Assembly (NCBI GenBank): GCA_019915135.1
Contig: JAHLMK010000013.1
Coordinates: 1,426,001-1,490,000 of the forward strand
Length of the DNA stretch: 64,000 nt
Direction: 5' to 3'
Source: Strobilurus pachycystidiatus
Lineage: Eukaryota; Basidiomycota; Agaricomycetes; Agaricales; Physalacriaceae
The translations under genes were made by a program, and so were the position numbers. The notes beneath the pieces were generated by a model that worked only from the letters and a program-made list of their open reading frames with translations, was not told the DNA's origin and made no database searches. Shown piece after piece: positions 25,590 to 45,435 of the stretch (position 1 is its first letter; each line of letters opens with the position of its first letter).

Positions 25590-26387
25590 TCACACGACAG
25601 TGTGCCAGTCCCAACGCTCAAGCAACAGGTCCCTGAGAACTACCAGCGGTTCCCCATTCGACACCAGTTCCAGCCGCTTCAACTTCGGCGTCCACCGCAT
25701 GAGCTGTACCAACGCTGTTCTCGTCTCAGCCTCGTCTCCGACCAACGCCCTCAACGTGAGTACCTCCAGCGAAGGTGCGGTGTGCTGGCCAAAGGAGTCA
25801 GGCAAGCGATCAACCGTCAGCGATACGAGGGACGGGAACTCGTAGCTCTCGAAGATGTGCGAGACGTAGTAGGACGGTACGCCGTCCAACATCAACTCGC
25901 GGACAGAGGGCGATACTAGGGCGTGCGGGGCACCAGAAAGACGCGCGTGCAGTGACGCTGACGAGCCGCGGAAAGTTATGCGTATGAGACGGCGGGCGCC
26001 TAAAGCCGGTGAGAGATACAATGCGCCATCTTTGTCTGTCGTCAGATCCTCGACTTGGTCCCAAGGGAGGGCGACGCTGTCCATGAGTGGGGAGGACAAG
26101 CGAAGCTGGACACCTCGGCAAGGAGGACGGTCGGAGTGCGTGATGTTGATAGCGCGTAGACGGGGACAGGCGGAAAAGCAGGTGATGGGAGCAACGGTGT
26201 CGGTGATGGGGACGGGGAGCATGTTGATGCTGAACGTCTCGAGCAGAGGGAGCGAGAGTGTAGGAATGGTGCGGAATAGCCCGATAGGGCAATCCAAGGT
26301 GAGTGTGCGCCACCTAGACGATGTATCCAGCACCGCGTCCATAAGCGCCTGGGATATGTGCGCCGTACCAAAAGAGTGGATGCACAT
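25590..26387 (-). pseudogene. F-box gene, 3' part (split by the 18.5-kb element)
   Basis: The open frame from the element boundary reads MCIHSFGTAHISQALMDAVL and continues SSRWRTLTLDCP, the usual layout after the F-box in basidiomycete F-box/LRR-like proteins. It continues to a stop at 25590 with no internal stop. Joining it to 45435-44867 and counting the 11-bp duplication once gives exons 45435-45394, 45339-44867 plus 26376-25590. That is 1302 nt, or 433 residues in frame. F-box proteins recruit targets to SCF ubiquitin ligases; the target is unknown. The insertion disrupts the gene, but both halves are undamaged. Confidence 0.85.
26377..26387. repeat. Target-site duplication, left copy
   Basis: TGGATGCACAT, identical to 44867-44877. 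Flanking bases differ, so the duplication is at most 11 bp. Confidence 0.85.
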
Positions 26388-26464
26388 GAAAGGAGACCGA
26401 CAATTCTTAAGAATTGTCGGTGAACACCGGGACAAGATTAGATGACGGCTTATCTTATGTTTTC
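26388..26464. repeat. Left TIR of the 18.5-kb element
   Basis: 77 bp, about 66 of 77 matching the right TIR by eye with no gap. It contains the palindrome GACAATTCTTAAGAATTGTC (26399-26418) and then GGTGAACACCGGGACAAGAT. Confidence 0.9.
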
Positions 26465-26499
26465 CTACCTACGGATGTACCCGTACACAACAGGTCTCC

Positions 26500-26705
26500 T
26501 GAACTCAAGTTCGAACTTGAGTCCCAACTTGAGTCTGTCTGATCTTATGACTGGATATCATGAGCCCAACTCAAGACCACTACGTCAGATGAGATTTCAC
26601 ATCAAGCCCAGCTTAAGCCGGCCGACTGAGAACTTGAGTTTGACTGAAGTTGTATGCAACATGAGTTGTATCATAAGTAGCTCGAGTTTCGATTAGATAA
26701 CTTAA
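26500..26705. repeat. Left subterminal ACTCAAG/CTTAAG array
   Basis: About eight irregularly spaced copies of ACTCAAG, ACTTGAG or CTTAAG in both orientations, including the palindromic AACTCAAGTTCGAACTTGAG. Likely transposase-binding sites, by analogy with other DNA transposons. Confidence 0.7.
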
Positions 26706-26709
26706 GGGA

Positions 26710-29285
26710 TTACGGGGGGGGTGTATCGTCGAGTTTGAGCACATCTTTGCAACTCATTTCCGCATCCGCTTGGCGCGTCCCAAACTCTGGTCGATAGGCG
26801 CATCGAGAAGCGGGACTGGAAGCTCTCTGGGATCGACATACGCATATGTCGTGCGCTTGGGCCTGTTGATCGCCGTCAGTCACAATGATAGAGATCAGGC
26901 TGGTGAGAAGTTTTGAGAACCTTCTTCGGCTCTCCGTCTCCGGGACCTCAAGAGGGGCGGAAGTAGGCATAGTTGCCTGAAGGGACGATTCCGCGAGGCT
27001 GTCAGCTGACCTCTTCCTTCTGGAGCATTTTTGGTCAATGACGCGAGTGTGGCGCAGTAAACTTACTTGACTGGTCCTTTCGTCCCACTTGCTTTTCCCT
27101 TCGTCTTGGCCTTTCCCTTTCCCTGCCGCTCCTTTGTAAACAGTGTTTTCCTGATGGACAATGAGTAAACGAGGGTCATACATGCAGGCGATACTCACTC
27201 TGTTTGACCTTTCTTCTTCTTCGCTTCAGGCAATTGACCACTGTTCAACTTCAGCAAAGCATGAGGGCAACTTGACGAGAATGTTCACCTGTTTTCGGCG
27301 GATCCTGGTACCTCACCCGGATCGTCCGCGATCTGATCGTCCGACATGTCTGAGCCGGCTGCCATTGCTACCAATATCATCGCCGCTTCAGTGGAGGCAC
27401 TATCTAGAGCGTTAGCTAAGCTCAATATTCGTACGAACAGACTTCCACCCACCGAGAGTCAGTCATCGCCACATCATCGCTTCTGATGATCGTCTCGCTT
27501 TTGCGACCACCTCTCCCCCCTCGCTCTGACCTCTTGGCGGGCGAGTTGGGCCCGACCTTTGGCGATACAGGCTGCGATACATGCACCCTTTCCATCGTCA
27601 CGTTGACCAGGTCAACTTGAGGTATATCGTTCCGATCGTCCATGATGATGTCGGCCGAAGCCTCCGGACCTGTTGGAGGTGAAGGGGGCGCATCCTCAGC
27701 CAGTGCCATTGGAGGTTCTTGCGGCGACTTCACCGACTTTCCCTGTATCTTATCGTCTGGCAACAGGAAGCGGAAAGGGGAAGTCGACTCCTCGTTAGAG
27801 CGTTCCATTAGCGCCGTAAATGCCGACAAGCGAGCCTGTGCCCGCGACACACTTCCGCTGATGGTGCTAACATAGCGCGCCACTTCGGGCCAGTCATCAG
27901 CATTGAAAAATTCGCCTGGCTTTGCCGCCAATTCACCGCGATTGAAAGTGACTGGGCCGAACGCTGACGCTACAAAGTCGTTAGTCAACGAGGAACTAAT
28001 ACCGATTGTGCGAATGATATACCCCATACGGCTCGCAAGTACTCCTCCAAGATGGTGTCTTGTTGTGCCCCGGTTTGATTATCGAGGTCCACCGTAGGAA
28101 AACGGGGCAGGCCAATGACATCCGCTGCAAACAGTAGAGTCTGCTTCTTCGGCACTATGAGGGACCAGTCAATACATCAGACACGGTGGTCCGTAAAGTC
28201 GAAAGCTTACAAGGAAACTTAGATTCGAACCACTCTGTCAATGTGGCGAACAAGTCCGATCCGAGACTCTCCGACATGCCGCCCACTTCAGTTCCGCAAG
28301 CAGAGGAATCAGCCCTTCAGACGTATGAGCCAATGACCGTAGTAGAGGACATCGGATGGACTTACACTGATCCGTCTACATGTCCTGTCTCGCGATCACG
28401 AAACAAGTACATTACACTGACTGCTGCGGGGCCAGCGATTGCTTCGATCTCATTCGCCAGCTTGTCAGATAAGAGCTGAACAGCCAAAGGCAATCTCAAA
28501 AGTTTGCTTCGAAATGCGAGTGAGCGTCACGCAAAGTTCGAACTTATAAGAGACACGCACCTATCTCGCGTATTCACCTTTGCCGCCTCCTTGTCCCATT
28601 GCTCTCGCTCTGTATCCGACAAGTCTCGCCAAAGTTCGGAGGATGCCTTGCTGAACGCAGCGCCATTGTTACCACCTTTGACTTTGTCTCTGAGCTCCAG
28701 AGCACGTTGCTGGACATCGTTGCGGTTCTTTTCTTGGAACAGTAGCTGGCCGTTCAGGTTTGTCGAAAAGCGGAGGAGCCCTCTCCTGCTTATCACGTTG
28801 TCGTCTCGTTTACCGTCGCCGTTCGTGTCCGCCGCCACATCTTCTTCCACTTCGTCGTCGGCACCGTTATCATCGAAGACAGGCAGATCCTGGTATGTCT
28901 TCCCAGAGTCGAGGTACGACTTCCTGTTCGAGAACCATTTGATCACCTTCTGCCATAATCGCATTAGACACTCGAAGCTTTCGCCGTTGTAATTCACACT
29001 CACCTGTCGTGAGATATCAACATCCCGGAACACGGCATGCTTGAGGGCAGCAGTAGCCGCCTTCTCTTTCCAGCCTGCGACCTTCTTTTTGTCGGTCTTG
29101 CGTGTGCAAATGCGCACCCATTCCGGCAGCATCGTCCATAGAACGGTGAGTTGATGAGCCGTCATGCGGTCGTCTTCGCCCCCGCGTTTGTAGGGGTGCT
29201 GAAGCTTGCTGTCGGGCAGAGTACTCGGGTCGTACCCGCTAGCGAGCCAAGGATCGTCCGCCTCCAGATCGTAAGGTTTCTTCAT
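26710..29285 (-). CDS. HMG-box-like accessory protein of the KDZ element
   Basis: The start MKKPYDLEADDPWLASGYDP is at 29285. Exons can be followed through AALKHAVFRDVDISRQ, KVIKWFSNRKSYLDSGKTYQ, an acidic stretch, then GAAFSKASSELWRDLSDTER, whose AF-x-S-x3-W-x-LS-x2-E-x2-W spacing resembles an HMG box. Next come EIEAIAGPAAVSVMYLFRDR, LLFAADVIGLPRFPTVDLDN and GEFFNADDWPEVARYVST. A basic tail with GGRGGRKSE follows, and further small exons lead to a stop at 26710. Proteins with this block order are frequent in Agaricomycete genomes; I do not know a demonstrated function. The last exons (27400-26710) are less sure. Confidence 0.55.
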
Positions 29286-30494
29286 GGTGGGTGGAATGAA
29301 AGTCAGCAAGAAAGGATTGCCCGAGAGATATTGGGCTAACCTACTTCTCAGTATCACCCTACGGGATCCTTTCTGCCGAGATCTATTGTTCGTCTCAATA
29401 GTGTGCTGGTTACCATTGTCTGCCAAACATACATTGGAGCAGGTCGATCCTGACGCCTTGCAGGAGCCACGATGCACAGCGATCCTGCATCTGCGGGTGC
29501 CACGAAGCACGTCGATCCTGACGCCACGATCTCTAATCACACCGAGTTCAGGTTCAATATATGCATATCAAATTAAGGTCCCACTAACGCCCAGAGCAAT
29601 ATCACGCCTTCCTGTCCTGGATCTAGAGCGTCAGTGACCAAATAGTGTATGCGCCACGATATTAACTCACAGTCAGAGGGCAGGAAGGAATCTCCCCACA
29701 TCGAGAGCCCAATCAGCAGGAAGTGGTTCCTCTGTTGCTTTGAAGAACATTGGGGTGACTGGATCCGCGATGTCGAAGAACGTCCTCCACCCGATTGTGA
29801 CCCATTCGCAGGAGCTGCCATCCACAGCTAGTCGCTTGAAATATGGCTGTTCATTGACGCCTATTGTCGCCAGATCAATTACATGATCTGCAAGTCGAGT
29901 GCGAGTGCTATCCAGCTGGACAATAGTTCCCACTTTTCGGCCTCCCTAAGGACAAACATGAGACCAACGCGAAGGAATGACTGCGCTGCTAACATACAGG
30001 ACGATAGAAGATGAAAATGGCATGGCGCGTCCCCCGTTTCGGGCGCTTAACCCTACGTTTGCGATGGAGGTGAAAGTGTTGAGGGATCTTCGTCTGGAAG
30101 CGCTCGGTCTATGGCAGGTTAACGTGTGTGAAGGTCTCGAGTGGCACACTCACCCAAATCATCGTGAACGAAGAAGGGAAGGAGACGGTCGACCTATACG
30201 AAACTGTCGTCAGAACTCTCCGTCTCTAGGCACCAGTAGCCAAAACAAGGGAAACCAACTTGCTTTGTGTTCCCATTGTTCTCCTTACGCGGGTAGGACT
30301 GCGAGCACAAGGCTCGCGCCATTGTCCTAAGATCCCTGGATGAGTAGACCGAAATTGATAATCCGTAAGACGGGGAACTCACCTCGCAAACTCCCGATGC
30401 TCCATCGGTTCACTTGCCGGCACACAAGTGGGGGCGAATGGTGAAAAGCGGTATGATTTAAAGTCCAAAGTTGATACATGCGAAGAATATGCGA
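29286..30494 (-). other. Spacer with a coding-like minus fragment (29673-29933)
   Basis: A minus-strand frame at 29933-29673 (GTIVQLDSTRTRLADHVIDL, then CEWVTIGWRTFFDIADP) reads like protein but has no clear start or partner exons. The rest shows nothing I can support. It may be a remnant or part of an unannotated gene. Confidence 0.3.
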
Positions 30495-33400
30495 TCATAT
30501 GGCATCTATTACCATCTTAGCACTACCCTTTCGGCTCTTTTCCCGTAGCGCCATGACTTCCTTGTCTGTCTCCTTCCAATTCGAGGCACGCTCTAAGATG
30601 ATGAGGTTCTCGTTGAGGACGGTGATGCGTATGTCGGTGATCTTGTCGGGCTTTCCGGGTCCTTGACGCTCGACAACGGCAACTGTCCAAGCCGGCTTCT
30701 TCACCCCAGAGACCATCATGTCAACCCAGCGAATGGGTCGAACATATCTCCCAATGTTATCACCTCGAAAGACGAACCAACAGTGACCGTCACCGGGCTT
30801 TGGTCCAGGATGCTTCAGCTGGACTTGACTGGGAACTAGCGCTTGCGCTGATCGCTTGCCCTTCACTATCCGATATACGCCGACTGTCCCGCTGTCAAAG
30901 CGTATTTGCTGGATCGTCGTGAGATGCTCTTTCAGCTTGTCCCCCTTTCCTGAAGAACCATTACTATTTCTTACTTCGATCCCCTGGGTGGGGACGACAA
31001 TCTTCAAGTTCTCGAGGTGGCGCTGCAGACACCACGCGACCTCGTCGTTGTAGGAGAGGGAAGAGGTGACGATAACGCCCAGTTCTGAGCGATCTTGTAA
31101 AGTGATGCTCCAAGGTCCTTCCCCGGGAGGGACGTAGGGTTGAAACAACCTGCCAGTGTCCGATTCCTTTGGCTGGCCAAGTGCGCTACGATACACAACA
31201 TGATTCCTGGAGAGCTCCGCCTCGTAATAAGCCTGGTTGCCGCGGAATCCACTTTTGTGGTGAAGCGGACTGAGAGGAGCAACAATCCGAAGAGGCCAGA
31301 GTGTCCTGTGCGAGTGTCAGTCTACGTGAGTCTGGCTAAAGAAGAAGTAGTCCTCACTCGGGATCAGAAACTGCCCCGTAGGCGTACCACTTCTCCAGAA
31401 GTCCTTCCTGAGCTCGCAGCATATCGAAGCGAACGAGGATCTTCAGACCACTAGCGATCTTGTCGTCTTTGATGACATCCTCAACCGTCCCGGTGCGCCC
31501 TTTGTATTCGCCCGTCGTAACGATCACCGGGCGGCGAAACCAAGGAACGTTGCCAGTATACATCATCTCTGGACGAAAGGTGACCCGATTGGTAAACATG
31601 TCCTTGTCTGTGTCGTACTGGAGGTTGTCATGGATAGAGTTGACGGGGGGACGGCGTGGCTCTGGGTCGGCAGGGGGCGGTGGCGCGAGAGTGTACAAAG
31701 GCCGCCCAGTGAGACGCTCTGGCGGTTGAGTGTTACTGGTGATGTGAATGCAGTTGTTCTTGTGAACTTGAACGACCTATCGTAACATGAATTGAGTTGG
31801 AAAGACGGACGAGTGTTGGGTACATACCTGGGGAGAAATCTCATTGGGATCTTCGCCGGTCCAGTAGATAAGGACCGTGATGTGTCGTTCTTGCCTACCC
31901 CGCCTTACTTGATGTTCTCCTTGAGAGGGCTCATCCCCCGCACAACTCGTCGCTATCACCCATCCATGAGACATCCTCGTACTGCCGTTCCATATACCCA
32001 CCTCCTGCCCCACCTCAAACACGCGGACTAGATGCCTCCTTTCGATCTCCACGGCCTTCAACCCATCGTCAAGCGGCCGCACCGTCACGGATTGGGATAA
32101 AATGGTACGCCCACCCGCTTCGTGCAACGCATCCTGAGCTGACAGGACCTCTCCCTTGAATCCGTTTCGGGCATCCTCTACTATCTCGCCAGTCTCAAAG
32201 TTCCCACTTTCCGCTGGAGGTATCAAGGAAAGAGCAGACCTCACTTCGGAATCTTCGCATTGCATGAGTTGATTGTGGATGTGGGGAGGTGTGGATAGGG
32301 CTATGGAGATGTGCGAACGGCGGACCTGGATCAAGGCGAGATCGGCTACGAAAGCAGTACTGCCCGTCTCCTCGTAACGAACTATGGAATGCTTGTTTTC
32401 GCTGACTGACAGCTTTGAGCGGATATCTGTAGTGAGAAGGTGGGGCGGATGTCGAGTACCAGGTGCAGGCGGTATACGGCAAGGTGTAGATGTCCAATTT
32501 CGGTCGGTCGGGCGTTTACCAGACTGAGCATCGCGCCGTTCTTCCTCTGTAGCATCGCCATCGCCAACGAAAGTTCGCTGCCATCTGAAGGAGATACGCG
32601 GCACGACTTTAATCGTGCACCAAGTGCTCTTGTAGTCCTTCTGTACCCAACCGATATCACCGTCGTATTTTCCTCCTCGGATAGTGACCCAACATCTAGT
32701 AAACTTCTCCCGTACACCTCGACTGCTGCGCCATGCGCGTAAACGCTCAGCGGGAGATTGAAGAGGCTGCATCGATCGGAGGGAAAGACCGTACTTCGCA
32801 TGGCCAAGGTCGTCGACAAGGAGTTGAATGAGCGAGTTGAACGTACCCCTAGAGGCAATGTAGATGGACGGCTGCGAAGGAGTTTTGGGGCTGGGCCAGA
32901 TGTCGATTATGCCGTCTTCGGGACGAGCATCGTGTTGGAGGCGGCCGGCGATTGTCTGGGAGAGCTTGCTCCGCTGCTCTTGCCCGACGTCTAAGAAATC
33001 ATTGCCTGTCCCGATAGGAACTTCGTCGCGTTGGTACGCCAGACGCGCGGTATGCTGCCAATCGCGATCTTGTCGTCGGGGAGGTGGGGTACTGGGTTTG
33101 AATCCAATGTTATCCTTGATCAATTTTGAGACCTCGGCGGAGGTTCGATACTGTTGACAAAGTCAATGGTGCTGTTCCCAAATAGTATTATAGCAACCTA
33201 CGCGACATTTGATCCGCCAAATGGTTATATCCTCGTCGGCCGCATCGTACACACGCGAATGGAGTACGTCCTCGTCCTCGTCCTCGTCCTCAGCTTCTTC
33301 ATCATCATGCCCATGGCTTATAGTAGGGCGTGCAGAATCGTCGCGTGTGGTAGAAGTTGGGGCAAGAGACTCGAGCCACGAATGAAATTGCCTTTCCGAC

Positions 33401-33635
33401 GTCCGTTCCAAAGCAGCGATTTCCTTCGGAGTGAGCCTGTGCGAGCTGGGAGAGTCGCTGTGAATATCATGGTCTGAGCATTGAGTAGAATTAGATCTCG
33501 GAGCAAGGTGTCAGTCGAGAGTTGCTACGCACCTTCGAGCGTCGGATCTTCTTCTTCTTCATCCAGAATTTCGTCGTCCTCGGCGTCCTCGGCCTCTAGG
33601 GAAAGGAACTGCTCTATCGCCGCCGCGTCGGGCAT
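30495..33635 (-). CDS. SPT5-like (NGN/KOW) protein carried by the 18.5-kb element
   Basis: The start MPDAAAIEQFLSLEAEDAED is at 33635, followed by an acidic N-terminus. Several short introns interrupt the gene. An NGN-like strand ITIWRIKCR precedes a segment with SIYIASRGTFNSLIQLL. The next block, TRCWVTIRGGKYDGDIGWVQ, is a KOW-type motif. Further KOW-like blocks are GNFETGEIVEDARNGFKGEV and VPWFRRPVIVTTGEYKGRTG. The last exon (31196-30495) has HCWFVFRGDNIGRYVRPIRW, which matches FRGPNKGQFMRP in the gene at 14436-17739. It lacks the long coiled coil of that paralogue. It diverges from the gene at 34708 across a hairpin-containing intergenic region. Likely role in transcription elongation or its interference is inference only. 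Confidence 0.6.
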
Positions 33636-33844
33636 GACCTATCCTACTAATTTACTAATCAGCGCGTCGTGTCTTAGATTACAATGATTTTTTTGGAGAA
33701 AATTTGGAAGACTCGCGAGCGGGATTGCATTGACCGCTTCTTCTATCGTATTCTAGATCCTATTCTACGGCACTTACATTGGTAGGGCGGGGGACCAGCA
33801 GCGCCTGCGACGGGACCTTCTTGGTATGAAGCAAGGTGAAAAGG

Positions 33845-33991
33845 CTTACGTAAGTGCAAAGCTCGGCAGGATACGGCCTGCCGTTTGGCGTCCAAAGTGC
33901 ATCGGACATTTGCGAAATGGAGCAGCACAGCCCATGCACTTTGGACGCCAAACGGCAGGCCGTATCCTGCCGAGCTTTGCACTTATGTAAG
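33845..33991. repeat. 58-bp-arm near-perfect hairpin
   Basis: Arms 33845-33902 and 33934-33991 match in all but one position around a 31-nt loop. It lies between two divergent genes, as in M1 and M2 but with a different sequence. Confidence 0.95.
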
Positions 33992-34166
33992 CTTTCCCAT
34001 CTTGCCAGCGCACCACAATGTAGGCACCCATTAGGATTGGGGGCGGAGCAGTGCGCCGCTCATGCCCACGCGGGCGGGCCCATTCATCAGAGTGTAATGC
34101 TAAGTCATGTCCCGTAAGTTTCAAAGCCACGAACAGGCAAAATGGCGCCACTAAAATCAAATTTGC

Positions 34167-34184
34167 AGGGAGAGTCCATGTCGG
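34167..34184 (+). promoter_or_regulatory. AGGGAGAGTCCATGTCGG motif (third locus)
   Basis: Identical to the right end of M1 (2106-2123), including the upstream AAATTTRC. No inverted partner is seen on the SPT5-like side here. It lies about 540 bp upstream of the next called start at 34708. Confidence 0.7.
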
Positions 34185-34707
34185 GACGTTCAATTCCAAT
34201 CAACACATACGGGCTGAGTGGGTCTCCAATGCGATTTCCCGCCCAGTGTTTACTTAGTTTCATTGCAGCCCTTGAGTTTGGCCAGGGATCCGAGGGGGCG
34301 TGGTCGTATGTGTCGCGTTGCTGTGGCGCATGCCAGGTACGCTCGAAACCTTCCTTTGTCTTTCGGAGTTCATCTGACCCATTACACTTCCAGATCATTC
34401 CTATCTATCGCACTCTCAGGCCCACCTAACGATCCCTCGCGATCGAATATGTCCCGACTTGATTCTGCTACCACTCTCTCCCCTTAAAATGGAGATTTCC
34501 GCGTTCACGATGCAAGTCTATCCCTGCAGCGCCTCCCGACGGGCTGGAATTGCCGTACAGGACAATGGGCGCGAAAAAATTGTACATTTGTATGTTCTCC
34601 TTTGGTAAATATTCGCATTATTTACTGATTATGGCTATCGGTAGTCGTTCTCCGTCTCGCACGCAGTGAGCGGCCATGGTGACTAGGCATACCGCATTGG
34701 TCGAACA

Positions 34708-35783
34708 ATGGCCCCCGCCGTCTTAAAAATCACTCAGTTGTCGAATCCTTCTACACACATTCCTTCCATGAAACACTACTCCAGTAAACACAAGCGCAAG
34801 CTCGCCTCCGCATCCTCTCGGGTATCATCGCCCCCTTCACCTCCGTCCACACCTAGGAAGGTGCGCCACCCCAAACCGCCTACCACCCCCAAGAAAACCC
34901 GCGCAGACCTGGCTGCGGAATACAGAGCACTGGTCTTTCGTGGCGCTAACGAGATCGCCGACAAAAGGCCGACAAAGCCCAAATGTCCTCACGGCTTTAG
35001 GTGCTACGTCAAAGGTAGCGTCTACATCGGTAGAGGCACCGGTTACTTGGACGATGTTACCTTCAAAAACCACCCCGAACGGGTTAGAGATCTTGGGCGA
35101 CATCAGGCTCATGCAAGTTACATCTCACCTATTATTTCGCGCCCTTCTCACGCTTTCAGCAGTGTTCCCGGCACCTTTGGTATCAGTTCTATACGAAGGA
35201 GCGCACTTTTGCGGCTATCCGAGGAAACCAAGATCTCATGGCGGGTCTCAACGGGCACGACTTCCTCCGCGCCACAGCGAATCGCCGGACGACCACACCC
35301 CAAACCCCAACCCCCAAGTCCCAATCGAATCGCAAGGAGGATACACTTCCTCCTTCATCGCCGATCCCGGCTGGGGCATCCGACGAGCCTCCCTACCTCA
35401 GGCGGAAGCTCCACAACGACAAATTTAGGTCTGTGGAGGTTCTGCTATGGCTAGACGTACGTACTCTTGGCTTTTCAGCAAACGAATATCGTCGCTGAGT
35501 GCACATGTTCCAGTCCTCGAATGATCCTGCCGAATTGGTTTTCGACATCAACGCTCGTAACGAGATCGTTCTTCAAGACAATCGTATCGTCCTCGGCGAG
35601 GTTGGCTACGACGGAGGAATGCTGTCCCGCTTCAACCCGGATGGTTTCCTTTGGGAGCCGACGAGATTTGACGCGCCCTTCGTCGTCAATCCGAAGGTCA
35701 CTCTCGGTATCAAGTTGGACAGAATCCGACGCTTGACTGGCATCAAGGAGCGCATGAGCGATCTGTGCGATGAAAATGTCTAG
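34708..35783 (+). CDS. P1: unknown protein, tandem paralogue of P2
   Basis: The first exon starts at 34708 (or MKHYSSKHKRKL at 34768) with a basic Ser/Pro-rich N-terminus, then KCPHGFRCYVKGSVYIGRGT. A middle exon has GLNGHDFLRATANRR...PYLRRKLHNDKF and ends SVEVLLWLD at an intron (35457-35513). The last exon reads LVFDINARNEIVLQDNRIVL, GEVGYDGGMLSRFNPDGF, and ends IKERMSDLCDENV at 35783. Intron position and C-terminal pattern (LWL, intron, then VLGEVG and NP near the C-terminus) match P2. Function unknown. Internal joins are approximate. Confidence 0.5.
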
Positions 35784-35805
35784 AGGTGTCAACTGTTAAT
35801 CCCAA

Positions 35806-35955
35806 TCTCGAATCGTTTATAAGTTTGTTATCGTTACTGTTACCTCGAATCGCTTAGAAGTTTGTTATCGTCACTGTTACCTCAAATCGTTTACCATTTT
35901 GTTATCGTTACTGTTATCTGGAGTCGTTTAGCACCTTGTTATTGTTACTCTTACA
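35806..35955. repeat. ~40-bp tandem repeat, about four copies
   Basis: A unit built on CTCGAATCGTTTATAAGTTT plus GTTATCGTTACTGTTAC, diverging towards the right. It lies in the 3' flank of P1. Confidence 0.8.
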
Positions 35956-36237
35956 CCGTAATTGTTTTGATTCTATACCTATCATCTACCTCGTTGCCTC
36001 CCTCATGCACTTACCGCTACTTCCTTTCTGCTCGAACTGTAAATGTAACCCCTGCGGAAATACACATCGGTACCAAAGCCTTTTGTCAGCGACCTATCGC
36101 CTTGACAGGGCGGCCTCCAGGAAACAAACATTCCTTGTGCGTAATTCCTTCCGTCTTTGTGTGTTCCAGGACGTTAACAGATCTGTCCTCAGGCTCGGTC
36201 TTCTACATAAAGCTGGTCTCACGCATCCAACCTCTTC

Positions 36238-37062
36238 ATGTCTACATCGAACTCCTCGGTCATCGAGGACCGCGCGGTCTCCAAAGAAGACATCGACCTT
36301 CTCATTCGCGCGGGAGCCGCTGCTCTTGCTGGACCCAAACCCGCAGCGCAGCCATGTAGTGGAAACACGGAACCTTGCATCGGTGTCGGCGTCAGAGTAT
36401 ACTGGGGTATCAAGGGGGACAGTGCGCCAGTGAGTCTGGAAGACGCCGGTTCTGCGGACATAGCCCGGTTCTACCAGAAGGTAGGCATTTCATCCTGCTA
36501 CCGAACCAAGTTAATTCTTGCACAGTGTATCCTTGACGAAGAGTATCAATGGCTCACGCCACGTCTTCCCAAGGAGAGGTTGTCAGAATCCAGCCTCATC
36601 TTAGACGGTCTCCGCCTACGCAAGCAAGCCAGGGATCGTGCTCAAGAAGAGCGCAGCAAGTCCCTAACTCTAGAGAAACAGAAATTATCGGACCCTACAA
36701 CAATGGCTGCGCTCCTGTGGTTGAAAGTACGTCCCGTCCCCTACACGAAAGCTGTACGCTTTTTCACATATCGCGTTTGCTTACAGAATAAGCAACCTCC
36801 GGTCCGTCTTTCGTTGAAAGTCTCAAACAAGACGGAGATTGACTTGTGTTCGCCATCCAATCTCGTGGTGCTCGGCGAAGTGGGAGCAACGAAGCAATGG
36901 CTCCACTACTTTGACGCGCGCATGGCTAGCTGGCTTTCGCCACAGAAAGATACCGCTTACATCACGAATCCAGACGGTATTTTGGCTCTCAAGGGCTGTG
37001 AGGTTGACAGATTGTACGGCTGGGAAGATTATATCGAGCAGATCTATCCTTCCAGACATTAG
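36238..37062 (+). CDS. P2: unknown protein, tandem paralogue of P1
   Basis: The start MSTSNSSVIEDRAVSKEDID is at 36238, and the uninterrupted frame spans the whole region. A GTACGT...CAG segment at 36727-36786, in the same place as the P1 intron, suggests that segment is spliced out in frame. Blocks are CIGVGVRVYWGIKG, a Lys/Arg-rich helix (RKQARDRAQEERSKSLTLEK), MAALLWLK, then NLVVLGEVGATKQWLHYFDA and YITNPDGILALKGCEVDRLY. No known domain recognised. It lies between P1 and the KDZ region on the same strand. Confidence 0.55.
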   Translation: MSTSNSSVIEDRAVSKEDIDLLIRAGAAALAGPKPAAQPCSGNTEPCIGVGVRVYWGIKGDSAPVSLEDAGSADIARFYQKVGISSCYRTKLILAQCILDEEYQWLTPRLPKERLSESSLILDGLRLRKQARDRAQEERSKSLTLEKQKLSDPTTMAALLWLKVRPVPYTKAVRFFTYRVCLQNKQPPVRLSLKVSNKTEIDLCSPSNLVVLGEVGATKQWLHYFDARMASWLSPQKDTAYITNPDGILALKGCEVDRLYGWEDYIEQIYPSRH

Positions 37063-37122
37063 GGCGTGTCCTATGTACCGACGTTGCCTTCGGTGACACC
37101 AAATAATCATGTGTTTTACTGT

Positions 37123-37970
37123 AGGCCCGTGTGCCCAAGTCGGGAAAGTGGCTTGCTTTGTGACGAATAGGGCTAAAAGGGCCACCTGTTTCGTCTGTGT
37201 ACGTCCGTCTTTCCCTTGTGTATTGACCTTCTCCCCGTCTCGCCGGTAATTATTACTCCTCCCACTGTCTTTCATCCTCTAACCAAACCTCGCAGTGTCG
37301 ATTTGGGCCAGATGATGAACGCTGTCGCCCATCAAGATACATGTCTCTTTGCAGATGCGATGTATCTCCAGAATCTCGAGGGGAACGACCGGATCCTCGG
37401 GGAAAGGAGCGAAAATTTCTGGCCAGAGAGACGTACGGTACGGTAGTCATTTCGCCTCTGTAGACCTTTGCGGCTAATAGCGCGTTGTAGATGGAGAGCC
37501 GTACCGAAATGTCGGAGATCGTCTCTGTCAAGGACGACCACGACACCGACTCACTTTGCTCCTGTGGCAGTAACTTGGCTCGCCGCGTTCGGTGTGTTGA
37601 CTGCTCACCTGCGGTCGGCCCCCGTTGCGCAGAGTGTTTCGTCGCTAGACACAGTGATGGCCTTTGGCTGCATCGGGCGATGGTTAGAAACGAGGAAGGC
37701 TTCTTCGACAGACGCGATATCAGCCATTTTGAGTTCCAACCCCAACTCGGTCACGCTGGTGGCGACTGTCCAGCTCCGCTTCCCCCAATGCAACTGCGAG
37801 TCCTTGATGTAAACGGTATACACAACATAACTTTGAAATTATGCGGTTGTCACGGCGAGAGGGAAGATAGACAGCTGGAGCGCGCTGGTCTAGTTTGTAC
37901 GGACATTGAATCAGGTGCGGCGGTTACGAAGAGGGTGTTTCTGCATATGTCTACTTTACGTTTGTGAACT
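37123..37970 (+). repeat. Duplicated 5' segment of the KDZ gene (first copy)
   Basis: Begins TAGGCCCGTGTGCCC and has TTGCTTTGTG 21-24 bp later, as does 38030-38070. Each copy is followed by a CxC2-coding region. Confidence 0.6.
37491..37967 (+). pseudogene. Truncated CxC2 cysteine-cluster copy
   Basis: A 158-residue frame starting MESRTEMSEIVSVKDDHDTD. It has the KDZ-associated CxC2 cluster: SLCSCGSNLARRVRCVDC, PRCAECFVARH, QPQLGHAGGDCPAPLPPMQL, then DVNGIHNITLKLCGCHGE. It stops without any transposase core. The full-length gene follows 160 bp later with the same cluster, so this is a partial tandem duplicate. It might still make a DNA-binding fragment. Upstream frames near 37216-37446 may include an exon of it. 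Confidence 0.7.
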
Positions 37971-38125
37971 AGTATGATGATACATGTGTCTCCGTATCGT
38001 ACCCGGAATGACTAAGTCTTTGTTGCGTAGGCCCGTGTGCCCCCATAAGGAGAGCGCCGTTGCTTTGTGCTAGTAGGATATATGACCGGGATAACGAAAG
38101 GTTCGTCATCCCCTTTCTTTTCAAC

Positions 38126-41100
38126 ATGACCAAGCCTGACACTCGAACCTGGGAGCAGAAGCAAGCCGATGAACAAGCAGAATTCACTCGACGTCAGGCC
38201 TCGGGCACCATTCGAACAATGCAGTCCGCTCGAGCTCAACCTATCACCAATCGATTTCGCCGCACGAACACGCAAGGTATCGCCTCTGTCGAGGAGTCTG
38301 TCGTTCGACCAGTGGCGATCCCAGTACTTCTTCCTGCGGCGCATTCTCGGAAGACAGGTGCAGGTGAAGCTCCACCCCAAGAGGCTGATCCCGATGAAGA
38401 GGACGACGAAGAGGAGGAAGTCGAGACAGGTAGTAAGACGCAGGTCGGTGTCCAGTTTTGCTGTATGTGATCTTGTCCTCAGCACACTTCCACAGACGCG
38501 CATATGCTTAGAAGCTTTCGTCGAGATCAAATCCCAACTACACGACTACCTCATGGAAACAGAGGTGGAAACGAATACGGGAGCTACGTGTCCTTGCGGT
38601 AGAAATAACCGACGCAATGTGCGGTGTAGAGACTGCATCGAGTACGGTGTACGGTGCTCGCAGTGCTTCACCGACAAACACCGCAACATGTGGACTCATT
38701 GGGCGGGGGTACTGCAGGACGAGGATTGCTTCGCTGCCCGCGACATCAGCGCGTTGGGTTTTGCCCCTCAACTAGGTCACGGCGGCCAAGACTGTCCATC
38801 CCCACATCCACCTGTCCAATTCATTGTGGTGGCCGAAAATGGCATACACGACACGAAGCTACGATTCTGTGGATGCCAGCCGGAGGGTGTTGACCGGCTT
38901 GCACAGCTCATGCGTGCGCACATGTTCCCGGCTACCGTTGCTCGGCCTGAAGTCGCGTTCAGCTTTGGCTTACTCCGACAGCTCGAACTTCTACATCTCG
39001 AATGTACGGCGAACATTTACGACCTCACAGCTTACCTTCAACGGCTTACGGACAATCAATATCCGTGGTCGGTCGCTGTGAGTCTTTGATGGCTCTTCGT
39101 TGTATAGCGAGAGGCTGATTCCATTGTCAGCAACTGGCTAAGCAGCTGCGCAGGGTGATGCGCATCTGGAAGCTTCTTCTCGCCGAACGAAGAAGCGGCT
39201 CTATCTACAACAAGCATCAAGTTGGCTTTTCGAATCGCCAAGCCGATTCGCTGCTCGTCTATTGTCCCTTGTGCCCAGAGAGAGGTGCCAACATGGAAGA
39301 GAAATGGTCCTTGACGCCCGAAGAGTTCTAGTGAGTTTGTTCTCTGGTGATTGTCTCCCTATGAAACTAATGATTGTTCAGTCATCTCATAGCGCCCTTT
39401 TTCACTCTTGACGGAAACTTCAAGATTTGTCAAGGAAGTATGAACTGGAAGTTCAAGGATCCCAACCTCATTGCCGGTCGTGGACTCCAGCCACTGCTCG
39501 AGGAATTCGAGGGCTACAGAAAGACGGCTATTCCATCCCCATCGAACCGACGCGAGGTGAGTCGAACTTTCGTACAGGAGTGTATTTCACCGCCGACTGA
39601 CAGTCCGAATGTAGAAGATTCCCTGTAACAACCTTAAGTCGACCCAGCAACACGTCCGCAACGCGGATTGCGTCTACAACGGCATTGGACAGGGACAGTG
39701 CTCTCACGTCTTCGTGAAATCCACCGCTGATTTCCCGAAAGGAGAAGAGTAAGTCAAACCTCGAATCACTGGCTCATTGCTCAAAAGATGATGGCGTTCT
39801 CATAGCCAAATAACCATGGACTTGGTAACGAAGCTCCTCTATCTGCGGTCTGGCTTCCCGGAGAATCCCAATGCCGACGACCCCCAGCAACCCAGCTCCC
39901 TCAGTTATGATTCCAACTGTCAATACGGTGTTCATATCATGACGCGCTTTAGCCACGAGTATCTGAAATCTATGGCCCCCCACATAGAGAAGGCTACGCG
40001 ACTAATCAACGCCGCACATGTCTACACACATGCGAACGGTTGTATATACATGTTCGGCTCCTTTTATGTCGAATGTCAGTGCCACTTTCATGGCGAGACT
40101 TGCGAGCATTTCTGGCCCAAGTCCAACGCCTACGCGCCGATGATATTCCACATGAACCGGCACTATGGGCACGAGATCTATTTCGGAGTGGCCATGGATT
40201 GGAACTGGAAGAAGACGATGAACGCAGGTGAGTGTATGATTCTCTTGACTGCCCAACACGACGGCTCACAGTTATTGGTCAGTTAACGAGGTGTATAAGA
40301 ACACTGTCTACGCGCGACTGATGTATACCCGCTACAAATACGAGTTCGCATTGGTCAAGCAACAGAATATGGAATGGATACCCGAGTGGGAGCGGGCTTT
40401 TCCGAACCGACACAAACACGGGAAACACTTTGAGGTGTCAGGCAGCGGCAAGAACAGGGAAATCTTGAGCCCGTATAAGGAGCGCGAGATGAAAGGTATC
40501 TTATGTTCCTCCCTTGCCATGTTGGCAATGCTCATCTGTTTTACAGTTCCGTGCATGGACAAGGTCCTCGAGACATTGCTGGAAAATCCATACAGCCTAT
40601 CGTTTGTCGGGGACGTGGAGTCCGACGTTCTGGCCAAATGGATGCACGATGGCCTTGTAATTGAAGCTAGACAGTAAGCGTTCCTCCTTTCGAAACGGAA
40701 CACTCACTGACCTGATGTATGTAGGCGCCATGTTCGTGCTCTCTGTCTCCGCCTCACCAAGTACGAGTCCGCCACAGACGATGAACGGGTCAAGCGTGAA
40801 CGAGCGACTCTCCACGAAGAGCTTGAGCCCTGGTTGGTCTTGCGAAAGAAGTTTTTCGGAGAGCCGGAGCCGTACGAGCAACGGGGTGTGCGCACCCGCA
40901 TGAACCAGGAGCGACGATACAAGAAGACAGGCAAAGTAGAGGAGTGGACACTGTGTTTGCCCTCGCAGTTGTCGCCCGGACTCCAGGAATCCTTACGAGC
41001 GGCGACTGACCAGGAGAAGGCAATGCGTATCGCATCAGCTTTCCAAGCCATTCGGCTGGTCATACTCATAGCGCGAGAGCTACTTGCTCTGGGATACGAC

Positions 41101-42202
41101 AAGCGACAGTTGAAGTATCAGGGCGTGATTACCAAGAGCCGCGCGCGGATATCCCGTGCGAAGTTTCGACGGGATGAAGCCATCATCACCTTCAATGATC
41201 ACTTTGTCGCATTGCGGAACCTCCGCGGCCTGGAGGGATCACAACTGGAGGGCGTAGAGAATGAGATGACAATCCAGGATACCTACGTCGCCAAGTCGAT
41301 GGATGGCTTGCGCCAGCCGTTGGACTCCAGTCGACAAGATGGCCAGGCTCATTTGTTTCTTCACCAGCATCAGACGGCGATGATGGGCGAAGGCTTCACG
41401 GAGCGAGGAAACAAGCGAGTATCTGACGGGCAAGCTCCTGGTACTCCTTCTTTGCATACTTGCTTGAACACTGTGATACTTACTCAGTGTACAGGTCCTT
41501 CTCAACCCATCAAACGAACGAAGAGTCGGACCGTAAACGCACAGAGTGAGTCTGAATGCATGGAGTTCAAAACGACATTGACGGTTTCCAAAGAAAAAAA
41601 GCCGGCCAGAGGAGATGGTTGGCCATATAGGATAATGGAACGCGGTAGACTGGAGGATGAGGAGGTTGATGCATGGGAGACGGACGGTACGCTCGGTTCG
41701 CTACCAGTCTATAGTTCCTGACAATCGTTGCGTCTCTCTCCAGGCGAACGTGTACGATACTTCCGGACGGAAGCCGAGATGCGTAGGTGGAGAGAGCAGC
41801 ACGAACGCATGCAAGCAGAATTCTTGAACGCCATTCGGATGTTCGAAAGGGAACGAGACACCTGGGCTAAGTGTGCAGAAGCTCATGCCAGCATGAAGCC
41901 CCCGAAACTCGGCTATGCTGCTTATGCCCGCGAGCATGCATTGATGTTCAGTCGCATGGCAGAACGAGGCCGCTTACGCGTACGGGCTTGTGGGTATAGT
42001 CACATTCTGGAGTTATCTAAGGACGAGCCCTTTTACCAGCACTGTGAACGAGTACGCGCCGGCAAAGCGCCACTGTACTTAGAGTCCAACGGGGATGTTG
42101 TGTAAGTGCTTGTCTGTACTTGACGAACACTATACTCATCATCACAGACTCGACTTGGACCTTCCGCAGATGGCGCTTGAGGACGCAGAGGATGGTGTAT
42201 AG
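38126..42202 (+). CDS. KDZ-type transposase (Kyakuja-Dileera-Zisupton)
   Basis: Likely transposase of the enclosing element. Exon 1 is 38126-38443 (MTKPDTRTWEQKQADEQAEF, then an acidic tract). Exon 2 starts at 38496 and carries the CxC2 cluster (CPCGRNNRRNVRCRDC, GHGGQDCPSPHPPVQF, RFCGCQPE). Several short introns follow (for example 39078-39129). RNase H-like core motifs are FFTLDGNFKICQ, SYDSNCQYGVHIMTRF (aspartates), HVYTHANGC, FHGETCEHFW (glutamates) and VAMDWNWKKTM. A helical C-terminal region with RKKFFGEPEPYEQRG and DLDLPQMALEDAEDGV ends at 42202. No stop is forced within the frames I followed, so it may be functional. Confidence 0.85.
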
Positions 42203-44450
42203 ATAACATAGCCAAGTCTGAATCAAAAGTGATCATATATCATTCCCAGAATCGGTTACTCGTCTGACGAGTATCCGCGCGCCCCCTTGTCGTGGGTTCT
42301 GGGCTTAGCCTTCGGGCGACTAAGCAGCGCGTAAAACGGGTCGTCCAGATCAACAGGCAACAAGCACCGTATTCTCATGCCTGCGTCTCGCAAGGTGCGT
42401 CTCAAACCTCTCACTTTTTCTCCATTTCCACCCCCTCACCACATCATCCTCAAACTCTTACATCGACGCCTTCCCCCGACCCCTTCACTAACCCCTTCAC
42501 CGAGCGTGGCAAATCCCCCGTTCATACAACCCCCCCCCTCACCCCCCCCTTTCACCCCCTCCCCCCTCCCCCCTCCCCCCTCAATCTCTCCACCTCAACA
42601 AAGCAAAGCCTCACTCCACACGTCCCCGTTCACCACGTCTTCGTCCACCTCCTTCGTCAACCCCTTCACTAACCCCTTCACCAGCTGCGACCAATTCCCC
42701 GCCCCCCACATCCCGCTCAATCACATAACAGGACCTCCGCGTCTATAGGTAAGCTTTCGATCAATCATTGACCGTCTTCATCTTGCTCACCATAAATGAT
42801 AAAGGCCGCTCATCGTCGCTACTTTCTACGTTCCTCTGGCGTCGGGGAAATCATGGTACGTACAAGCAAGACATTTTTTTGTTTTCACACTGTTCTCAAT
42901 CTGATGCTATCGGCAGAACTAGTGGTAATTGATAGATATGTGCAAGAGGATACGGTAAGTAAGCGGATCAAGATAAGTGCAAGATAGAGTAAGGACTTAT
43001 ACAATTACAATTACAGCAGGGGTGGTAGATACGGCGGTAGGAATCAGTGGGATTAGGAGGGCTGGAAGGGAATCTGTGAAGGTGACGACGAGTAAGAGAC
43101 TTACCAAGGCAGGGAAGCAGACGACTTACCGGGATGTGGTCGCGGCGCTGGAACCAGTATCTGAACCGCCGTTGAGATGGGCGAACTTTCGTCTGGCGCC
43201 GGATCATGCGCTCCACGGTGCCAGGATTGCGTTCGTCGTGAACGAAAGCTTCGGAGTCGCTGGGGCTGACCCAATGAATTGCCCCAATACACCAATGATG
43301 CGAATCAAAGACGCGAATGGTTACATGGCCGATGGGTCGATGAGGCGGCTCGGGTTTGTGATACGAAGTGGGTCTAACAACACTCTTAGCCTTTGAGATG
43401 TGAACGGAGGGCGAGAGAACCTACGCGAGGGCGAAGACTCGAACATTTGGACCGAATACGCGACGATACCGATTGGCGGAGTCGTTGAGGGCAAGGTCGC
43501 CGAGGATGGGGGTGGGACCGCGCCGGAAACGCTCCAAAAAGCAGTGCGGGCCACGCCGAGGGCGATATAATTCGACATCGATGGCGTGAGCGACGGTGTG
43601 GCGGCGGCGATTGCGGCGGCGCGCCATGGCGACGTTGGGAGGGTCGGGTTGGATGTGGATGAGCGTGATCACTGTGCGGTGATGCTCGGCATCCGGTCCG
43701 GTGCCCAGCCGGCGGCCTGGGATGCGCTAGCGACTTGGGAGGACGACGTACGACGCGATGAATGGCCATGTCGCGCGCGCTTGTCTGGAAATGACGAGGC
43801 GTTGTTCTTAGATACAAACAGGAACGAGATATCTGTGTTCCTGGCGGAAGTATTTACATAGGCTAGGTACCCTGCAATGTTGCCGTTTGGTGCCTGTGCA
43901 CTTTGGACGTTAATCAGACCTGGGTACGTTGCCGTGGTTGACGGATGACTAAGCATTTGCTCTTTTTTCCCAACCACCACCACCGCGACGACAACCACAG
44001 CGCCGGCGCACCCCACGACACCTGCTCTGCAGCGACGACGCCCAACGACCAACCTCACTTGTAGTCCCGCCGGCTACGCGTTACGAACCCATTGGAGACG
44101 GGAGACGACTATTGCATGGACTGCTGGCAGGGCACCATGACAGTTTGGGTGCGTCGCCTTTTTTTTTTTCTCGTTTTCGCGCTGACAGTGTTGACGACAG
44201 CGGTCGCTTCGTACGGACGGCGAGGGACTCAGGTGCGGCCTACCAACAGAACAACGACGCTGCTCGCCCGCCGTGGCGGCTCGGCTGAACGCGGGAGCGC
44301 GACGAGCGTCGAAACAGGTAAGCCTCGTTCTCTAAATCCATTCTCTTCGTTTTGGGTGCTGCGCGTCGACTGCTGCCCTTAACGCCCTACCATACCATGC
44401 TGACCAGATTACAGGTCTAGACCCGTCTGGCCGGGGCATGGTCGGTCCGC
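42203..44450. other. Element interior, ambiguous coding on both strands
   Basis: A polypyrimidine C/T tract (about 42410-42600) creates spurious frames. At 42377-43861 plus-strand fragments with neat GT-AG sites occur (GVVDTAVGISGIRRAGRE; LRWANFRLAPDHALHGARIA). On the minus strand, 44058-43421 also reads protein-like (NGNIAGYLAYVNTSARNTD; AHAIDVELYRPRRGPHCFLE). I cannot decide the strand; it is probably a degraded gene inside the element. Confidence 0.3.
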
Positions 44451-44454
44451 TCGC

Positions 44455-44735
44455 CCAACTTGAGCTCATGACGTCAATCTGGGATCTCAAGCCCGACTCA
44501 CGGCATTCCGCCTTGACTCAAGTTCAGCTCAAGTTGGCTGCTTAAGTGCAGCTTAAGTGCAGCTTAAGTAAGTCTTATTATAAGTCTGACTCAAGTCTCT
44601 CGAGGCGCTAAAGATCTCGACAGATTCAAGTCCGAACTTAAGTTAGGCTCAAGCTGGTGTCTCGAGTTCTTGGACTTGAGCATGGCCTGACTTGAACTCG
44701 AGCTGTGATCAAGATTAGGTTAACTCAAGTAGTGT
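44455..44735. repeat. Right subterminal ACTCAAG/CTTAAG array
   Basis: About fifteen copies of ACTCAAG, ACTTGAG, CTTAAG or CTCGAG variants in both orientations, including three in a row at about 44540-44570. Confidence 0.7.
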
Positions 44736-44789
44736 GTGTAGTAGGTACAATGGAATATATACTGTTTTCCCGCCAAATTCAACCAGACT

Positions 44790-44866
44790 GAAAACATAAG
44801 ATAAGACATGATCTAATCTTGTCCCGGTGTTCACCGACTTTTCTTAAGAAAAGTCTGTCATCTTTT
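44790..44866. repeat. Right TIR of the 18.5-kb element
   Basis: Reverse complement of 26388-26464, 77 bp. Its palindrome is GACTTTTCTTAAGAAAAGTC (44836-44855). Relative to the left TIR both arms changed together (AA...TT to TT...AA). Confidence 0.9.
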
Positions 44867-44877
44867 TGGATGCACAT
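44867..44877. repeat. Target-site duplication, right copy
   Basis: TGGATGCACAT, as at 26377-26387. Confidence 0.85.
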
Positions 44878-45435
44878 ATCCAATGAGAAGCCTCCCACCC
44901 TCCTGCAATACACTTCGAACTTCTCCGCATGATCCTCCCTCTCCAGGTCGATGAACACGCTCCTCCAAACTGCTGGGTAGTCCAACGCTGTCTGCCGCCA
45001 GAACCGTGAGACGTGCGACAGCACCCACGGGGCCGTGTGTCGATCCAAATGCGAGCCTTGGTACTTTTGCCGTGCCCATGGGTTGCGCGACAGCGGCTCG
45101 ATGAGAGCACACCAGTCAAATATCTCGCCTAAGACGTCAGCAGGCACGCGACGAAGGGGGTTGACTGCTGTCTTCTGGGGGCGAGGGATATTTTGAGGAA
45201 GGGTGTTAGGTCTGGCGAGGCGACAGGGACGCTGGTGTTGGAATTGGAGGATATCATGGAGGGAGAGTTTGGCGGTCTCGGATGCGAGGTCTTTTTGCGA
45301 GAGGGGGGCGGTGGTATGGGTGATTGCCATGGGCGAGAGCTGTGAAGACGCGTGAGCAAATGGGTCCACAAAGATGCTGCGAATTATGCTCACCTGGGCG
45401 GGTGGTGTGAAGCCTGGAGCTGGAGTTGGACCCAC
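44867..45435 (-). pseudogene. F-box gene, 5' part (split by the 18.5-kb element)
   Basis: Exon 1 is 45435-45394 (MGPTPAPGFTPPAQ), with an intron ending at 45340. Exon 2 carries the F-box RRVPADVLGEIFDWCALIEP, then WVLSHVSRFWRQTALDYPAV and WRSVFIDLERE, the standard basidiomycete F-box layout. The frame runs GGFSLDMCI into the duplication and then into the element TIR, where it terminates at 44779 after reading element sequence. The rest of the gene is at 26376-25590. Confidence 0.85.

Follow-up and report, generated by a model that had tools for sequence, protein, structure and literature searches.

The DNA studied here, referred to as the window, is a 64,000-nt stretch of Strobilurus pachycystidiatus (assembly GCA_019915135.1, contig JAHLMK010000013.1, positions 1,426,001-1,490,000 of the forward strand), in which an F-box-type gene is interrupted by a giant element carrying a KDZ transposase gene together with genes for predicted Spt5-like and HMG-box-like proteins. 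We consider it highly probable, at roughly 90%, that positions 26386-44868 are an intact-looking cut-and-paste KDZ transposon of the autonomous type and one member of a family of six giants. The features that delimit the insertion, with its target-site duplication (TSD) and terminal inverted repeats (TIRs), are the following:

26386-44868, plus strand: whole KDZ element, 18,483 bp, with termini 5'-ATGAAAGGAGACC...GTCATCTTTTTG-3'
26379-26385, unstranded: left TSD copy GATGCAC, exactly 7 bp in 22 of 23 family members
44869-44875, unstranded: right TSD copy GATGCAC, placed by family comparison
26386-26464, plus strand: left TIR, with an internal hairpin-forming palindrome
44790-44868, minus strand: right TIR
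43880-44868, plus strand: right subterminal region of about 1 kb, piecewise common to smaller copies
25590-26385, minus strand: 3' (C-terminal) part of the interrupted F-box-type gene, from the joined frame
44869-45330, minus strand: 5' (N-terminal) part of the same gene from the first ATG, with an F-box-like match (PF12937, E 0.0022, under the curated cut-off)

Borders of the element and the interrupted gene

The sequence TGGATGCACAT occurs exactly twice on the plus strand of the window (26377-26387 and 44867-44877) and not once on its minus strand, and the original prediction had taken this 11-bp duplication to fix the ends of an 18,479-bp element to the base. The duplication is present; the borders drawn from it were wrong, and comparison with the family moved each of them by 2 bp, leaving a TSD of 7 bp and an element of 18,483 bp. 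The dinucleotides AT and TG just outside the first-read left and right borders, respectively, are identical in 13 of 14 loci with paired TIRs (in the remaining copy, L012, they are shifted by an indel) and therefore both belong to the element, not to the target. The window copy is the only one of 23 elements readable as an 11-bp duplication, because by chance the 7 bp of its target were preceded by TG and followed by AT.

These 23 elements comprise the window element, 17 fetched smaller elements and five other giants, and a direct repeat of exactly 7 bp flanks 22 of them, with no position of the target fixed across the tally. The family-wide ends are those given above with few changes among members, the right end reading ...TTTTG in 23/23 elements and the left end ATGAA... 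in 22/23. The TSD of exactly 7 bp also ruled out a Mutator-like placement, to which an 11-bp TSD would presumably have pointed. The gapless 77-bp TIRs described beforehand were recovered as well: they are imperfect, with 66 of 78 columns matching at offset 0 vs 19-25 at offsets 1-2, and a repeat finder returned the pair 26389-26464 / 44790-44865 (76 nt, 87%).

When the insert and one copy of the duplication were removed, a single open frame on the minus strand ran through the junction, in agreement with the claim that removal restores an F-box gene; its reported 433 codons were not reproduced, the joined frame measuring 469 codons from stop to stop, or 416 amino acids from the first ATG. The F-box label itself is weak in Pfam, as the E-value under the cut-off listed above indicates, and two of four database relatives of the protein are named F-box domain-containing proteins, from Mycena species. 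In the own genome, 100 of 241 candidate relatives were scored, giving 97 matches besides the two halves, and 81 of the 97 align across the junction (residues 145-163), one of them with an internal stop; related genes are therefore normally continuous at this point. The metagenome relative P0002 (73%) was dropped as evidence of continuity, as it starts at residue 166, past the junction.

Near-identity to the joined protein was confined to the two halves on C13; in order of E-value, the match that follows them is 30% identical. A recent insertion is plausible from the perfect TSD and the two open gene halves. Three observations weigh against the insertion as described here: the matches scored in the assembly include no empty, uninterrupted allele of this gene; no near-identical second copy of the element was found in the own genome, and so no near-identical source copy, because the best DNA relative of the interior is only 86% identical; and L012 is the sole element of the 23 without a clean 7-bp TSD.

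Six giants and their smaller relatives

The genome searched was the species' own assembly (51.8 Mb, 61 contigs). A search with the left end gave 39 matches, and the exact terminal 13-mers CAAAAAGATGACA and ATGAAAGGAGACC were found 51 and 36 times, against 1 and 2 occurrences of the reversed-pattern controls. A right terminus lay within 40 kb of 29 of the 36 left termini, where about 0.7 would be expected; one of these 29 pairs, just 51 bp long, was excluded as an element. Four of the pairs are giants of 18,689, 18,483 (the window element), 18,089 and 16,481 bp, and two more giants, C1:6046k and C27, have one base changed in the left motif, which brings the full-length giants to six, between 16.5 and 19.9 kb long. 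Besides the window element these are:

C1:6046349-6066287: giant of 19,939 bp, TSD CCAGCGC
C27:209608-228509: giant of 18,902 bp, TSD TTCTGTC
C1:6385078-6403766: giant of 18,689 bp, TSD GTTCCTC
C3:107047-123527: giant of 16,481 bp, TSD TGAGAGC
C23:224601-242689: giant of 18,089 bp, TSD CCTACGC

Each of these five has a perfect 7-bp TSD, and the inner TIR sequence varies among several giants while matching within each. TIR copies thus do pair at distances comparable to that in the window, as the original prediction needed, namely at 16.5, 18.1, 18.7, 18.9 and 19.9 kb. With the CxC2 and KDZ match of the transposase (see below), the near-identical termini, TIR pairs and 7-bp TSDs of the five giants lend good support to its proposal of one giant KDZ insertion in an F-box-type gene. 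All six giants carry the HMG-box-like gene, the Spt5-like gene and the KDZ transposase gene, the last divergent to both others, in the same order and orientation.

The other 24 exact-motif pairs are 1.4-9.9 kb long (14 fetched, 10 unfetched), and L012, L017 and L019, with changed motifs, bring the smaller elements to 27. The 17 that were fetched, 14 with paired TIRs and three in which one TIR matched and the exact terminal motif then revealed the other end, have only the ends in common with the window element, that is about 75-170 bp on the left and pieces of about 1 kb on the right. Three of them, L020, L018 and L024 (C21, C20 and C6; 9.9, 9.0 and 7.0 kb), resemble short copies that have taken up about 5.5-8 kb of unrelated DNA, and the insert of L020 holds an open reading frame (ORF) of 945 amino acids matching Transposase_21.

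Transposase and cargo genes

The three genes of the conserved core, with a stand-alone ORF next to the transposase gene, are placed as follows:

38126-42105, plus strand: KDZ transposase gene of about 10 exons with CxC2 and KDZ domains (spliced model, Pfam)
38126-38443, 38496-39077, 39131-39330, 39382-39556, 39615-39748 and 39806-40227, plus strand: transposase exons
40283-40673 (probably with one more small intron), 40725-~41690 and ~41730-42105, plus strand: later transposase exons, the last joins only partly modelled
37491-37967, plus strand: stand-alone second CxC2 ORF of 158 amino acids, also in the C1:6046k giant (83%)
30495-33510, minus strand: predicted Spt5-like gene of at least four exons (33510-33202, 33150-31828, 31776-31358, 31305-30495), about 950 amino acids, 5' end approximate
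28527-29567, minus strand: HMG-box-like gene (PF09011, E 2e-4, just under the cut-off), exon structure approximate

The spliced transposase model matched in Pfam both PF18758 (KDZ; E 1.4e-21, profile positions 4-208 of 217) and, N-terminal to it, PF18803 (CxC2; E 2.7e-26). The residues D377, D505 and E567, which we take to be the catalytic DDE residues, are invariant in the five aligned proteins. Both marks of the KDZ superfamily are thus found, a KDZ domain with its DDE triad and a CxC cluster N-terminal of it. Three Hymenopellis radicata (Agaricales) proteins share 52-55% identity with it, and one of Flammula alnicola shares 32%. Eight exon blocks (B-I) were tested in the five other giants: six of them (B-F and I) have no stops in any giant, block G has a single stop, at a suspected small intron in C1:6046k, and block H is broken by stops in C3 and C23. 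The ratio of nonsynonymous to synonymous substitution rates (dN/dS) of the transposase exons is 0.06-0.35 where computable, several comparisons being saturated, and overlapping or out-of-frame ORF pieces in the same table gave about 0.85-1.3. Genome-wide, at least 174 PF18758 matches were counted in 51.8 Mb, with 150 of 249 candidates scored.

The product of the second core gene is, to judge from sequence comparison, Spt5-like. Its third exon contains a KOW domain (PF00467) above the Pfam cut-off, the one Spt5-family feature so recognised, the NGN being seen by eye only. A profile of the second exon, built from ten sequences, gave eight PDB matches at E up to 10, six of which are Spt5 (the best five at E 8e-4 to 0.01, the sixth at 0.4) and the remaining two the nucleoporin Nsp1, and an hhalign comparison with the host's own Spt5 gave E 1.3e-5 and a probability of 81% over 255 columns. 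Several results tell against this identification: the matching stretches of the two displayed PDB alignments, taken singly, reach only E ~2-5; a single-sequence PDB search with the cargo protein found no Spt5 match; no Spt5-specific Pfam model scored over its cut-off in the cargo gene; a genome search with KOW1_SPT5 found the separate host Spt5 gene and no cargo gene; and the precomputed PF23042 label of the relative P0001 was not reproduced.

The dN/dS of the Spt5-like exons is 0.13-0.36, the window's own gene models are open, and the exons have no stops in the C27, C3 and C23 giants. The 18 Spt5-like matches in the genome were grouped into 15 loci, and their coupling was tested against 11 typed KDZ places. 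Nine of the 15 have a KDZ match within 10 kb, in divergent orientation in every case, and three of these nine belong to a second KDZ lineage, with a core 28% identical and with Spt5-like genes that are 34-35% identical and stand in the same divergent order. Among the matches listed, the nearest KDZ match is about 12 kb from the Spt5-like locus on C5 and about 18 kb from that at C1:4735k. At C13:565046 and C23:654411 there are diverged Spt5-like ORFs (37% identical) with open frames of 466 and 543 codons, and no KDZ match was seen within 10 kb of either among the matches listed; they are possibly stand-alone or differently mobilised copies.

All 13 matches of the HMG-box-like gene lie inside the six giants or the C5 copy. 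Its dN/dS is 0.21-0.30 in comparisons of 220-310 codons and 0.39-0.55 in smaller pieces.

Identity between the giants was determined in 1-kb bins, the sequences of C1:6046k, C27 and C1:6385k having unread gaps of 1.0-2.2 kb. The window element is 89-94% identical to C1:6046k over most of the Spt5-like part (80% in the last bin) and 74-80% over the transposase, and at the ends DNA similarity is slight or undetectable. Between C1:6046k and C27 the identity is 74-86% for the Spt5-like part, 87-91% for the transposase and 97-99% along most of the right end, and C3 and C23 share 94-100% except for about 85% over 2 kb. Synonymous divergence of the window element from C1:6046k shows the same split as the DNA bins, being 0.14-0.17 in the Spt5-like exons and at least 0.7 in the transposase exons. 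The simplest reading of these segment-wise differences would be that the giants are mosaics produced by segment exchange.

The remaining cargo ORFs are these:

27422-28078, minus strand: ORF with 36% identity to its counterparts in the C3 and C23 giants (dN/dS 0.22), in a comparison that took in the left ends of the other giants only in part
34687-35783, plus strand: ORFs, with dN/dS for the part 35499-35783 of 0.20-0.28 against three relatives and 0.62 against another, and no match to this part in the C3 giant
36211-37062, plus strand: ORF with dN/dS 0.22-0.77, less clear

An inverted repeat (33831-34005; 75-nt arms, 92%, 25-nt loop) lies upstream of the Spt5-like gene and has related copies in the C3, C23 and C1:6385k giants; three Rfam microRNA models matched on it at 33872-33964 below their gathering scores, and these matches were rejected. 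Many places in the genome hold sequence 82-94% identical to the 65 bp just past the transposase gene (42273-42337), often at least twice per locus and in several cases near other KDZ or Spt5-like loci. The flanks of the element hold a Transposase_21-like ORF (6434-8491, just under the cut-off) and, at 46742-50945, adjacent DUF6589 and helicase ORFs, and the flanking DNA is therefore itself transposon-like.

Interpretation and comparison with known KDZ elements

In the mechanism that we propose, the CxC2-KDZ transposase, of the RNase-H-fold DDE type, would recognise the conserved outer ends and the TIRs and insert the element with a 7-bp stagger, the target here being the F-box-type gene; the element may be active at present. 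The six giants keep the HMG-like, Spt5-like and transposase genes in one order, hold several other ORFs as well and probably swap segments, and the smaller copies with similar ends were presumably moved in trans. The Spt5-like and HMG-like proteins may promote transcription of the element where chromatin is silenced. We tentatively suggest, with less than even confidence, that a giant basidiomycete KDZ lineage carries its own diverged Spt5 together with an HMG-box protein, the two forming a conserved expression module under selection, in which an elongation factor of its own could take RNA polymerase II through silenced chromatin, as a counterpart to the TET/JBP dioxygenases of other KDZ elements.

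Some observations speak against this reading. The Spt5-like gene has two in-frame stops in C1:6046k and one in C1:6385k, the latter perhaps in an unmodelled intron; around six of the 15 Spt5-like loci the matches listed include no KDZ match closer than 10 kb; stops interrupt the HMG-like frames of each of the five other giants, with introns and damage not told apart; and one HMG-like piece of 49 codons has a dN/dS of 1.2. The cargo genes might thus be passengers without a role for the element, as the exchange of segments between giants, the stops in the Spt5-like gene of one or two of the five other giants, the six loci just mentioned and the inferred nature of any cargo role would allow. We nevertheless regard this as unlikely, since the order of the HMG-like, Spt5-like and KDZ genes is the same in all six giants, the dN/dS of the Spt5-like frames is low, and the second KDZ lineage, too, has at its three loci a divergently placed Spt5-like gene, in a genome that also contains a separate host Spt5.

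Still less probable, and largely refuted, is a KDZ core nested in an unrelated TIR element, so that the 77-bp TIR and the transposase would not belong together. The smaller elements, which match the window element at their ends only and in three cases hold unrelated inserts, could suggest such nesting, as could the abrupt start at 29117 of the similarity to the C1:6049k and C5 copies. Close to the inner borders suspected at 29117 and 42337, no more than about 50 bp away, there are two 7-bp repeats, but they were not placed as a TSD and are near chance (about 0.6 expected, by hand). In all six giants, however, the KDZ core stands between near-identical termini with its own TIR pair and 7-bp TSD, the subterminal segment 43888-43995 recurs in the C3 and C27 giants, and position 29117 falls inside the HMG-like ORF, where the protein similarity runs across it; the DNA-match edges 29117 and 42337 were rejected as inner ends of an element. 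A true TSD of 11 bp with an 18,479-bp element has practically no probability left, the exact 11-bp duplication at the window element notwithstanding, as in 22 of 23 elements the same ends are flanked by a duplication of exactly 7 bp.

For the transposon reading that we prefer, the six full-length copies establish where the elements of a giant KDZ lineage end, which TSD they make and which core genes they hold, and so provide a concrete pair of ends and a transposase for an assay. Should the Spt5-like cargo have an effect on transcription, this would be an anti-silencing strategy of fungal transposons distinct from TET/JBP, and the exchange of segments between elements suggests a route by which cargo may spread.

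The predicted cargo protein appears to resemble Spt5, a subunit of the elongation factor DSIF, in its acidic N-terminus, a segment that looks NGN-like by eye and a KOW segment, in the same order; it differs in being strongly diverged, transposon-borne and additional to the host Spt5 gene. No Spt5 or elongation-factor cargo on KDZ elements was found among the papers listed by the literature searches, which did not include the 2014 PNAS paper naming KDZ, and the word Spt5 does not occur in the main text of PMC12810828. No TET/JBP gene (PF12851), the mark of TET+ transposons, was detected in the window element or the other five giants, a diverged PE type possibly escaping the model; 13 weak matches elsewhere in the genome were all under the cut-off.

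Among described systems, PMC7641404 places CxC2 ahead of KDZ in intact elements of Pleurotus ostreatus. Zisupton and the Dileera representative Zisupton-1_PGr belong to the same superfamily and, according to PMC12730594, have 8-bp TSDs, which differ from the 7 bp found here. The Cryptococcus elements KDZ1-KDZ3, as described in PMC12810828, are likewise large KDZ elements with long TIRs (139-241 bp), a cysteine-cluster transposase and a documented insertion into a gene; they differ in their length of about 9-11 kb, in a CxC1 instead of a CxC2 cluster and in their TSDs of 8 bp (KDZ1) or 4-8 bp (KDZ2 and KDZ3). The two Kyakuja families Kyakuja-1_LB and Kyakuja-2_LB of Laccaria bicolor, again from PMC12730594, share with our element a KDZ transposase, an agaricomycete host and a 7-bp TSD (here in 22/23 elements), and the minus strand of the window element also begins with CA. 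They have CA..TG ends without TIRs and a TET/JBP gene, whereas our element has CA..AT ends, TIRs of about 77 bp and Spt5-like and HMG-like cargo with no TET/JBP match. Compared by description, TSD and ends, the closest known lineage is thus that of the Kyakuja-type KDZ elements, from which the long TIRs, the size and the Spt5-like cargo set the present one apart.

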